This document shows, in pieces, positions 14,422 to 19,546 of a DNA stretch of 64,000 nt (position 1 is its first letter; each line of letters starts with the position of its first letter). Location: NCBI GenBank assembly GCA_017881265.1, contig JADGRA010000047.1:1-64000 (forward strand), read 5' to 3'. The notes below the pieces were generated by a model that saw only the letters and a list, made by a program, of their open reading frames with translations, ran no database searches and was not told the origin of the DNA. The position numbers were made by a program, and so were the translations under genes. The stretch comes from Myxococcaceae bacterium (lineage in GTDB: Bacteria; Myxococcota; Myxococcia; Myxococcales; Myxococcaceae).

Positions 14422-15729
14422 TTGGCTGAGAAGGCTTCGGCACGGCGTCGCCGCTGGCTCCGGCGGCTCCTCGGCCTCCTGGCGGCCGGGGCCGTGCTGT
14501 TCCTGGGCGCGGCGTACCTGCTGGTGCTTCGCCCCTTTCGCCAGCCGCACCCGCCCGTGCATCTGGCGCCCGGCAGCTTGGCCATCCAGGGCGCGAAGCT
14601 GTACCCGTCCCCCGACGCGGCGCCGCTGGAAGGCGCCACGCTGCTAGTGCGCGACGGCCGCATCGCCGCGCTCGGCCCGGACGTCCCTGTCCCGGACGGG
14701 GCGCGCCTATTGCCCTGCCACGGCTGCGTGGTGACGGCCGGCTACTGGAACGCGCACGTCCACTTCACCGAGGACAAGTGGAGCTTCGCCGACTGGAAGC
14801 CGGCCGCGACGCTGGACGCGCAGCTGCAGGACATGCTCACCAGCCGCGGCTTCACCACCGTGGTGGACGTCGGTTCGGACCTGCGCGTCACGCTGTCGCT
14901 CCGCCGGCGGATTGAAGGGGGCGAGTTGCTCGGACCGGCCATCTACACCTCCGGCTCCGGGCTCTATCCACCCAACGGCATTCCCTACTACCTGCGCGAG
15001 CAGCTTCCCTTCTTCCTGCTGTGGCTGATGCCCCAGCCGTCGACGCCGCAGCAGGCCGCGCGCGTCGTCGAGGAGAACATCGAGCGGGGGGCGGACGTCC
15101 TGAAGCTTTTCACCGGCGCCTACGTGGCCCGGGGCCGGGTGCTGCCCATGCCCGAGGCCATCGCCACGGCGGCGGTGGCCGTCGCGCATGCACACCACCA
15201 GCTGGCGTTCAGTCACCCCAGTGACCTCGCCGGGACGCTGGTGGCCATGCAGGCCGGGGTGGACGTCCTGGCGCACGCGCCCGACTCCCCCCAGGGCATC
15301 GACCGGGCGCTGTTGGACACCATGGTGCAGCAGCACATGGCGATGGTCCCGACGCTCAAGATGTTCGCCACCACCGTCACCACCAAAGCCGCCTACCTGC
15401 AGCCCATCTACGAGGAGGTGCGGACCTTCCATGGCCTCGGCGGACAGTTGCTGTTCGGCACCGACGTCGGCTACATGACGGACTACCGCACCGAGGAGGA
15501 GTTTTCAGCCCTCGCCGCCTGCGGACTGAACGCCATGGACGTCCTCCGCATGCTGACCACCGCGCCGGCCGCGCGCTTCGGCGTGTCCCAGGAGAAGGGC
15601 ACCCTGGCCGTGGGGCGGCTGGCGGACTTGGTGGTGCTGGATGCCGACCCGAGCCAGGACGTCACCAACTTCGCGCGGGTGCGCGCGACGGTGCGCCTCG
15701 GCCGGGTGGTGTACCTTCGCCCGGAGTGA
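14422..15729 (+). CDS. Membrane-anchored amidohydrolase
   Basis: A 435-residue metal-dependent hydrolase of the amidohydrolase superfamily. An N-terminal Arg-rich stretch and one hydrophobic helix (LLGLLAAGAVLFLGAAYLLVL) anchor it, with the catalytic domain outside the cytoplasm. Metal-ligand positions are present: NAHVHF (HxH), a possible bridging Lys in DVLKLFTGAYV, HPSD and LAHAPDS, and the Asp in FGTDVGY. DLVVLDADPSQD near the C-terminus belongs to the small beta-sandwich domain. The group contains imidazolonepropionase- and prolidase-like enzymes; the substrate is unknown. The start codon is a TTG at 14422, with no better upstream candidate. Confidence 0.82.
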   Translation: MAEKASARRRRWLRRLLGLLAAGAVLFLGAAYLLVLRPFRQPHPPVHLAPGSLAIQGAKLYPSPDAAPLEGATLLVRDGRIAALGPDVPVPDGARLLPCHGCVVTAGYWNAHVHFTEDKWSFADWKPAATLDAQLQDMLTSRGFTTVVDVGSDLRVTLSLRRRIEGGELLGPAIYTSGSGLYPPNGIPYYLREQLPFFLLWLMPQPSTPQQAARVVEENIERGADVLKLFTGAYVARGRVLPMPEAIATAAVAVAHAHHQLAFSHPSDLAGTLVAMQAGVDVLAHAPDSPQGIDRALLDTMVQQHMAMVPTLKMFATTVTTKAAYLQPIYEEVRTFHGLGGQLLFGTDVGYMTDYRTEEEFSALAACGLNAMDVLRMLTTAPAARFGVSQEKGTLAVGRLADLVVLDADPSQDVTNFARVRATVRLGRVVYLRPE

Positions 15730-15773: not shown

Positions 15774-16490
15774 TCAACGCTTGGGCTGCGCGGCCCGCCG
15801 CTTCATTTCCTCGGCTGAGACGTCCTCGACGTGGGTGGCAATCCACCAGACGTTCCCCACGCCGTCCTCCACGCCGCCGCAGCGGTCGCCGTAATACTGC
15901 GTCTCGGGGACACGGACCGACTTCCCGCCCGCCCGCAGGGCGCGCTCGTACACGGCGTCGACATCTGGAACGTAGAGGCAGAGATTGGAAGGGTCGGCGA
16001 GCTCGGCCACTGTCTCGCTGGGCCGCCGGTGCCACCGCGAGAGCGCGAAGGGAACCGCCGGATGCGGCGTCGCCGCGCGGGCGACGGGGAGCAGCGCCCT
16101 TTCCAGCGCCCGGAATTTCGCCTCCAGCGTCGCCTCGCCGAGGAGGCGCTCCTGAGGCTCGCCCGCCTGCGCACCCCACAGCGCATCCAGCGACAGGGTG
16201 AGGTCGCGCACCTCGCCCGCCGGCACCCCGAGGAAGGGGGAAACGCCTCCAGGCCGGAAGTGCACACCGAGAACCGACACCGGCGCCGACGTCTGCAGGT
16301 GTGAAAACGTCGACGACGGGCCGACCAGCACGCGTTGGCCGCTGGTGCCCTCGCCCAGCCTCAGGATGAGGTCCGCGCTGCCCGTGGGCAACAGCCGCTC
16401 GCGGGCATGGCCCGGTCGAAAGCCGTCGAACGCCCAAAGGAAGTCGACGTAGCGCGACAGCGGAGGGGCAGGCGGGTAGCGCTGCGGGCC
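15774..16490 (-). pseudogene. AraC-type sensor domain fused in frame to the C-terminal half of a VOC protein
   Basis: Reading from about 16490 the frame begins with the family-typical LSRYVDFLWAFDGFRPGHARERLLPTG of a DUF6597-type AraC regulator. It continues through its ligand-binding domain to HPAVPFALSRWHRR...TVAEL, the point where the helix-turn-helix should start. At about 15995 it switches to LCLYVPDVDAVYERALRAGG, YYGDRCGGVEDGVGNVWWIATHVEDVS, which is the second half of a PhnB-like glyoxalase/VOC protein. The DNA-binding domain and the first VOC half are missing. No ATG, GTG or TTG exists in frame upstream of the conserved N-terminus. The first usable start is a TTG at 16391, inside the domain. 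It is most likely a deletion product joining two neighbouring genes. The 205-codon open frame could still be translated. Confidence 0.65.
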
Positions 16491-16631
16491 GACGTGGCGG
16501 CAGCGGGGGTGTTGCGGTCGAAGGCCACGTCCCTCCCTCCCTTGGAACGCATCCGCGCCGGAAGGACAGACGCCGACGTCAAGAAGCGGTGCCCCGCCGG
16601 TCGGGGCAGAAACGCGCGGGACTCTCCCGCC

Positions 16632-17474
16632 CTACGCGGCCTGTTCCCACTGCTCCCGCGAGCGGGTGGCCGACGCGAAATCCGTCTGTCGGGCCGGGTT
16701 CAGCAGGTATGGCCGTTCGTGGTGTGTGCGGTGGGCGTAGATGCCGCAGAAGAGGCGGTTGCCCCAGGCGTAGTAGCCGTGGTTCAGGTTGACTGGGTGC
16801 ATCTCGTCAATCGTCTTGCCGGCCTCGCCGTTGTGGGTCGACCAGTTGAAGTGAATGATGAAGAGGCCGCCGAGGACGTTGGCCGGAAAGAAGACGGTGA
16901 GGAAGAAGACCGGCCCCAGGAGCCACACCCAGCACGCGACGAGTACGAAGTTGGTGCCGTAGCTGACGCGGGCGCGAAACGCCTCGGAGCGTCGGTGTGC
17001 AGGGGTGTCGCCCCAGGTGTCGTAGTACTGCTGCTGAAGCTGAATCTCGGTATGGACGATGGTGTGTTTCACCGTCTTCCAGAAGGACGGGAAGTTGGGG
17101 TGCGGGTCGCGGCGCTGGTCGTCGGAGTACTTGTGGTGCCGCATGTGCACGATGTCCCAGCTGGCGAAGCGCACCAGGATGATGAGGCCGAGAATCTCTC
17201 CCACCACCCGGTTGATGGACTTGGGCAGGTTGCCGTGCGTGCAGTTGTGAACTGTTACCTGCGCCCACATGAAGGCGAAGACGAGCACCATGAACACCGG
17301 CAAGTACCACCAGGCCAGGCCCGGCAGCACCGGCCGGAATCCCGTGACGCCCATCACCACGAGTAACGCCGCGCACACGGCGAGCCAGAAGCCGTCGTAC
17401 ATTAAGTAGAAGCGTGGGTTCTTCTTGAACTGGTTGATGGGGTGCGCGGTGAGTGCTCGTTTGATGATTTTCAT
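16632..17474 (-). CDS. Membrane fatty-acid desaturase
   Basis: A 280-residue integral membrane di-iron enzyme introducing a double bond or hydroxyl into an acyl chain. The three histidine boxes are present: HNCTH (76-80), HMRHH (110-114) and a C-terminal HRTHH near residue 250. Hydrophobic spans lie around residues 27-45, 53-72, 90-105 and two near 175-215. The ATG at 17474 (MKIIKRAL) is chosen over an upstream in-frame TTG at 17486. No electron-donor gene is adjacent. Myxobacteria carry several such desaturases acting on phospholipid acyl chains. Confidence 0.88.
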   Translation of the reverse strand: MKIIKRALTAHPINQFKKNPRFYLMYDGFWLAVCAALLVVMGVTGFRPVLPGLAWWYLPVFMVLVFAFMWAQVTVHNCTHGNLPKSINRVVGEILGLIILVRFASWDIVHMRHHKYSDDQRRDPHPNFPSFWKTVKHTIVHTEIQLQQQYYDTWGDTPAHRRSEAFRARVSYGTNFVLVACWVWLLGPVFFLTVFFPANVLGGLFIIHFNWSTHNGEAGKTIDEMHPVNLNHGYYAWGNRLFCGIYAHRTHHERPYLLNPARQTDFASATRSREQWEQAA

Positions 17475-17798
17475 CCCGGGTTCCAAACAGCGAGATTCGA
17501 ACGGGCGCTAGCCATACGTCAGTCCGGGCCTCTGTGCCTAGACCCTCCAACGGCGCGTCGGCGGAGAGAGACCGCCCGCGGGAGAGGGGGCGATGAGTCT
17601 CGCTTCTGAGGATTGATTCGCGCGTGCCCCCCCCGGGCGGCGTGCTGCACGCCTGGCAGCTCGCCCCAGCACGGAGCTCGGCATCACGATGGGGCTTGCT
17701 CAGCGGTGTCGCTTCATGCTGCAAAGACTCACCCAGTCCGGCCAGCGACCGCGCAACAGCCGGCCGAGGCCTTCTGGTGACTGGAAAGGGGAGACACG
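17475..17798. other. Divergent intergenic region
   Basis: This 324-bp stretch separates the divergent desaturase and DUF2092 genes and must hold both promoters. I see no convincing -35/-10 pair, RNA gene or small ORF. A good ribosome site (GGAAAGGGGAG) lies at its right end, just before the GTG at 17799. Confidence 0.5.
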
Positions 17799-18667: not shown

Positions 18668-19546
18668 ATGAAGACGGATGCAGTGTCTCGAATGCTTCTT
18701 TTCGCCGCTGCGCTCCTGCTGCCGGCCGCGGCGTTTGCGTACGCGCATTCCAACTCCTACGGCGGGACCACCAGCCACTCGGAAGGGTCCACGACGGCCA
18801 CCGGATCCTATGGTGGAAGCGCGACGCATACGGAGGGGCAAGGGACGTCGGCCACCAATGCCTACGGCGGAAGCGCCTACCACGCCCAAGGAAGTGACCA
18901 GACGACCGCGACGAACGCGTACGGTGGAAGCGCGACGCATACAGAGGGGCAAGGGACGTCGGCCACCAATGCCTACGGCGGAAGCGCCTACCACGCCGAA
19001 GGCAGCAACTACACGACGGTGAACAGCCCCTACTACCACTCGTCTGCCACCGTCTATCACGCCCCGTACCCGTACCCGCCTCCGCCGGCCTACTACCACC
19101 CGCCCGCCACCGTGGCCTATTACCCGTCGTCGGGTTGCTACAACTGCGCTACGGCCGGTGCAGTCGCGGCCGGCGTGGTCGTCGGTGCAGCCATCGCCAC
19201 CTCCGCCTCGCAGGCCAACACCGCCGCCGCCACCACCAACGCCTACAACGCCGGGGTGGCGGCTGGCTCGTCGAGCACCGCTGCCGTCTCTTCCTCGGCC
19301 TACACGTCGGGCTACGTGGCGGGCGCCGCGTCGGCACCGCCCGCCGGCGCCCCCCCGACGTACGTTCAACCGGCGCCCGGCGAGGCGGGGTACATGATGG
19401 GCGGGACCTACGCGTCGCTGCCGCCCGGGTGCATCACCCCCAACGTGGCTGGGGTCACCTACTACCAATGCGGGTACACTTGGTTCAGGCCTACCTACGG
19501 CTCAAACGGGGTCTATTACACGGTGGTGCCGGCCCAGCAGCCCTGA
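18668..19546 (+). CDS. Secreted Tyr/Gly/Ser-rich repeat protein with glycine zipper
   Basis: A 292-residue exported protein. A signal peptide (MLLFAAALLLPAAAFA) is followed by four imperfect copies of a unit like NAYGGSAxHxEG. Next come a Tyr/Pro-rich linker (PYPYPPPPAYYHPP) and a small-residue helix CATAGAVAAGVVVGAAIA resembling a glycine zipper. The C-terminal domain has LPPGCITPNVAGVTYYQCGYTWFRP and YYTVV, like DUF6515-type cell-surface proteins. It may associate with the outer membrane or extracellular matrix. The ATG at 18668 follows GGAGGGACG. It is co-oriented with the DUF2092 gene. Confidence 0.7.
   Translation: MKTDAVSRMLLFAAALLLPAAAFAYAHSNSYGGTTSHSEGSTTATGSYGGSATHTEGQGTSATNAYGGSAYHAQGSDQTTATNAYGGSATHTEGQGTSATNAYGGSAYHAEGSNYTTVNSPYYHSSATVYHAPYPYPPPPAYYHPPATVAYYPSSGCYNCATAGAVAAGVVVGAAIATSASQANTAAATTNAYNAGVAAGSSSTAAVSSSAYTSGYVAGAASAPPAGAPPTYVQPAPGEAGYMMGGTYASLPPGCITPNVAGVTYYQCGYTWFRPTYGSNGVYYTVVPAQQP
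18812..19033 (+). repeat. 111-bp tandem duplication inside the repeat-protein gene
   Basis: Two head-to-tail units of 111 bp (37 codons) start at 18812 and 18923. The first 75 or so bases differ at a single position and the remainder has diverged. Each unit encodes two YGGSA motifs. The near identity implies a recent duplication or gene-conversion event and predicts length variation between strains. Confidence 0.8.

Follow-up and report, generated by a model that had tools for sequence, protein, structure and literature searches.

A probable young fused pseudogene joining an AraC-type sensor domain to half of a PhnB-like VOC protein in a Myxococcaceae genome

In a Myxococcaceae bacterium, a 285-aa frame on the minus strand (15774..16631, stop to stop) contains a DUF6597 AraC sensor domain that runs directly into the second half of a PhnB-like VOC domain. 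Is this a new protein that the cell maintains, or the remains of two genes that were once separate? The frame lies in positions 1 to 64,000 of contig JADGRA010000047.1, and this whole stretch of 64,000 nucleotides is referred to below as the window. The first-pass annotation had described an in-frame AraC/VOC chimera, and had left a deletion merging adjacent genes and a tolerated ligand-binding fusion side by side as explanations.

The composite nature of the frame was borne out by Pfam, since both matches fall in one reading frame. In the translation of window positions 15777-16490 (minus strand), DUF6597 was matched by residues 3-99 (E = 1.6e-21; positions 1-102 of the 103-position profile), which corresponds to 16194..16484 on the minus strand. 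Glyoxalase/VOC (PF00903) was matched by residues 148-217 (E = 2.4e-4), with coverage of profile positions 66-121 of 121 only. The second VOC module of a PhnB-like protein is present in the chimera and the first is missing, with the profile uncovered before about position 63-66. The C-terminal AraC HTH was sought in the chimera with Pfam up to E = 1, and no HTH family was found; neither was a displaced HTH or a VOC N-terminal half detected on the same contig. The sensor domain is the sole DUF6597 match above the cut-off in this genome. Among its 22 VOC matches, the chimera alone leaves the first half of the profile uncovered; three others miss some of its last part. The openness of a frame is weak evidence at this G+C content, as the frame antisense to the neighbouring desaturase gene reaches 343 aa. 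It is the two domain matches, together with codon preference in the chimera frame, that exceed chance: the preference is positive for both halves in this frame only, and third-position G+C is ~0.86 in either half.

The junction had been placed near 15995, where the HTH should begin, and alignments to both parents agree with this position, bracketing the transition from AraC linker to second VOC module to 15980..16005 (minus strand). The stretch homologous to an intact DUF6597-AraC regulator covers 15996..16478 (minus strand; 43% identity to the regulator of genome G036) and stops ahead of the HTH, the G036 alignment spanning 16478-15996 and nothing beyond. VOC homology begins within a few codons of this end point; among the matches listed, VOC relatives align from fusion residue ~165-170. 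The C-terminal half of the PhnB-like protein, comprising the second module, occupies 15774..15995 (minus strand) and ends with a stop at the same place as in intact relatives. The AraC side closes with a '-VAEL-' stretch that is followed by the HTH in intact relatives. The VOC sequence picks up just ahead of the second-module strand '-LYVPDVDA-'. The joint is defined to this bracket and not to the exact base, because the leucine-alanine-aspartate codons at this point are compatible with both parents.

Each half matched its own kind of intact parent, encoded by separate genes elsewhere. For the AraC half, the closest intact regulators are those of G036 (45%) and G051 (44%), over the length of the half. 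The VOC half is 56-59% identical to intact PhnB-like proteins of relatives from the same order (among the matches listed), and identity reaches 64% in other phyla, in an Acetobacteraceae MAG found in a scan of 84,980 species. With DUF6597 (PF20240) AraC regulators carrying a C-terminal HTH_18 domain, such as that of G036 (locus L035), the chimera shares the sensor and linker at 43-45% identity, but it has neither their HTH nor an in-frame start. With PhnB-like VOC/glyoxalase proteins (PF00903; e.g. L010 and L046) it shares the second module and the C-terminal tail at 56-64% identity, but not the first VOC module. Columns conserved across 85% or more of the intact relatives were taken from 27 AraC loci (excluding L101 and L106) and 25 VOC loci, all with an assigned strand and a usable frame. 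The chimera keeps 22 of 25 such columns in the AraC half and 22 of 24 in the VOC half, within the range of intact genes.

The absence of a start codon at the true N-terminus, also remarked on earlier, was upheld. No ATG, GTG or TTG occurs in frame from the upstream stop to the TTG at 16389..16391 (minus strand). This first in-frame start-type codon lies inside the sensor domain, 29 codons past the tyrosine (codon at 16478) that opens it. Relatives start ~5-10 residues ahead of the conserved domain opening, and the same place here has no start codon. An SD-like GGAGGGAGG followed by GTG (16528) is located at 16526..16540 (minus strand), in a frame that differs from the AraC frame. The codon-preference score is higher for the GTG-16528 frame at ~16565-16520 and for the AraC frame from ~16500, the frame-switch signal amounting to about 15 codons of a score trained on six genes of the window. 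Given this switch and the SD-like/GTG pair in the other frame, a small indel may explain the missing start; such a second, small lesion between the two frames is likely, the alternative being plain loss of the start codon. Searches of the locus for RNA families and for promoter or terminator patterns found nothing.

Fused orthologues had been named in the first-pass annotation as the mark of a stable domain fusion, and none came to light. Among 195 genomes of the phylum (this genome counted, and no second genome of the same genus found among those searched), no match spanning the junction was found except in the window itself. The 84,980-species scan, which uses short exact patterns, is not exhaustive and may miss near relatives of this genome, returned no fused copy, all 16 loci matching the VOC half only. 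Intact AraC and intact VOC genes occur separately in the searched genomes. A stable fusion with orthologues was rejected, since no match crosses the junction in these searches. Two loci that seemed to reach left of it (L032 and L045) proved to be ordinary full-length VOC proteins, and four with two matched segments (L051, L052, L055 and L057) are tandem VOC proteins. A literature search found no publications on DUF6597 or on a locus of this type.

Relatives with an intact AraC gene beside an intact VOC gene had also been predicted. Such pairs are indeed common, but the pairs found are of other subtypes, and no relative was found in which exactly these AraC and VOC subtypes are adjacent. The neighbour count was based on the 29 best AraC relatives, one locus per genome, of which L106 was dropped (its frame was not located). 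In 8 of the 28 assessable relatives, the next gene on the same strand encodes a VOC protein; two VOC subtypes are represented, with four of the eight neighbours confirmed by Pfam and the remaining four judged by eye as close copies. The downstream frame was picked by codon score, and some of the non-VOC neighbours may be miscalled. Four more genomes (G006, G062, G121 and G134) carry an AraC-to-VOC pair with a third VOC subtype, the genes overlapping, as in G006, or lying 18-72 bp apart (18 bp in G062). These pairs resemble the chimera in order, strand and both families, but they consist of two complete genes of other subtypes of both, whereas the chimera consists of merged remainders.

A DUF6597-AraC gene followed by a same-strand VOC gene was recorded at L088, L099, L102, L033, L107, L111, L029 and L104, as well as at L082 (2735-4083), L034 (6733-8046), L125 (1986-3334) and L126 (2369-3793). 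With 22 VOC matches in a genome of 4.4 Mb, adjacency of AraC and VOC genes by chance would be expected in ~1 in 100 cases or fewer, and the pairing suggests a recurring regulator-VOC partnership in Myxococcota. No VOC gene was detected with the fusion query within ~5 kb of the closest AraC relatives (G036 and G051). Conversely, a single AraC query found no G036-like AraC gene beside VOC loci, either at 34 loci with flanks of up to 1.5 kb or at 16 loci with flanks of up to 8 kb.

The chimera is flanked upstream by an intact fatty acid desaturase gene (16632..17486, minus strand) and on the other side by a convergent gene for an amidohydrolase with a hydrophobic N-terminal stretch (14422..15729, plus strand). 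The desaturase has a patchy distribution: at E <= 1e-20 it occurs in 11 of the 96 family genomes, counting the present one. Its nearest relative, in G026, is 84% identical and has a different neighbourhood; G026 was rejected as a representative of the ancestral state, its desaturase being adjoined by a response regulator and a histidine kinase (both named by eye from their translations). Relatives of the amidohydrolase within the family are only 37-45% identical. Elsewhere in the window, a tandem repeat with periods of 54 and 111 (18791-19017) lies within a protein that is putatively secreted and rich in units resembling 'TNAYGGSAYHAEGS'.

We consider that the chimera is most probably a young fused pseudogene (probability roughly 0.8). 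In the ancestor, a gene for a DUF6597-AraC regulator would have preceded one for a PhnB-like VOC protein on the same strand. A deletion would have taken the HTH part of the first gene, the intergenic gap and the first VOC module of the second, leaving the two remainders in one frame by accident. AraC-to-VOC pairs are a frequent arrangement, and a deletion in such a pair would yield exactly this chimera. The start would also have been lost, through a small indel or loss of the start codon, and since no in-frame start is present, little or no full-length product would be expected. These two particular genes would thus once have been neighbours, a deletion and not another rearrangement would have joined them, and the locus would now be dead.

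Relative to intact genes, the disabling lesions are the two missing halves and the lack of a start, and loss of both original functions is the simplest reading of a locus with no in-frame start, HTH or first VOC module. Counting against a pseudogene, decay is slight, as seen in the conserved residues and third-position G+C described above; no VOC gene was detected near the AraC genes of G036 and G051, nor a G036-like AraC gene beside the VOC loci, and the pairs found involve other AraC and VOC subtypes. Because the conserved residues are mostly intact, the event would be recent or the remaining product tolerated.

The two pieces might instead have been unlinked and brought together by an inversion, a transposition or the transfer of a fragment, the result still being a pseudogene. 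In the relatives examined, the genes most similar to the AraC and VOC halves do not lie side by side, nor is the locus syntenic with G026, where a response regulator takes its place beside the 84% identical desaturase. We regard such an origin as unlikely, however, as same-strand AraC-to-VOC neighbours are frequent, the pieces stand in the order expected from an AraC-VOC pair, and no reciprocal product was found on the contig. An assembly or sequencing artefact seems very unlikely; it would involve the misjoining of two real genes or the collapse of the stretch between them, an erroneous indel near 16500, or both. The assembly does consist of 81 contigs, the apparent frame shift near 16500 is also compatible with a sequencing indel, and an intact copy of the only DUF6597 gene in the genome might have dropped out in assembly. 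Nevertheless, the joint lies well within a contig of 118,792 bases, the searches of which turned up no displaced piece of the AraC or the VOC gene, and it is in frame, which a misjoin would achieve one third of the time.

A tolerated functional fusion would combine a DUF6597 ligand-binding domain, no longer tied to a DNA-binding role, with a single VOC module, two copies of which would pair into a complete barrel; translation would begin at a non-canonical or internal start codon. The stop-free frame, the intact conserved residues in both halves and the positive in-frame coding preference across them are what such a protein would show. No second genome among those searched carries the fusion, however, and the true N-terminus has no start, while initiation at TTG 16391 would truncate the sensor domain at its N-terminal end; we therefore judge this explanation distinctly unlikely. 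That the chimera is expressed and working, as a former one-component regulator that binds its ligand without binding DNA and whose half VOC domain dimerises into a pocket, read from an unusual start, appears more doubtful than any of the foregoing. Of the two explanations originally offered, the merging of adjacent genes by deletion is thus the better supported, no orthologous fusion having been found and AraC-to-VOC pairs occurring in 8 of 28 relatives plus four genomes; the new ligand-binding fusion is less so, with no in-frame start, no DNA-binding domain and only half of a VOC fold.

The frequent order of DUF6597-AraC and VOC genes hints at a role of such regulators in controlling VOC genes or in sensing VOC substrates. 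For the relic itself, the main consequence concerns annotation: automated gene calling may yield a 205-aa VOC or DUF6597 protein from TTG 16391 that is probably dead, and the locus would represent ordinary genome decay, not a new kind of protein.
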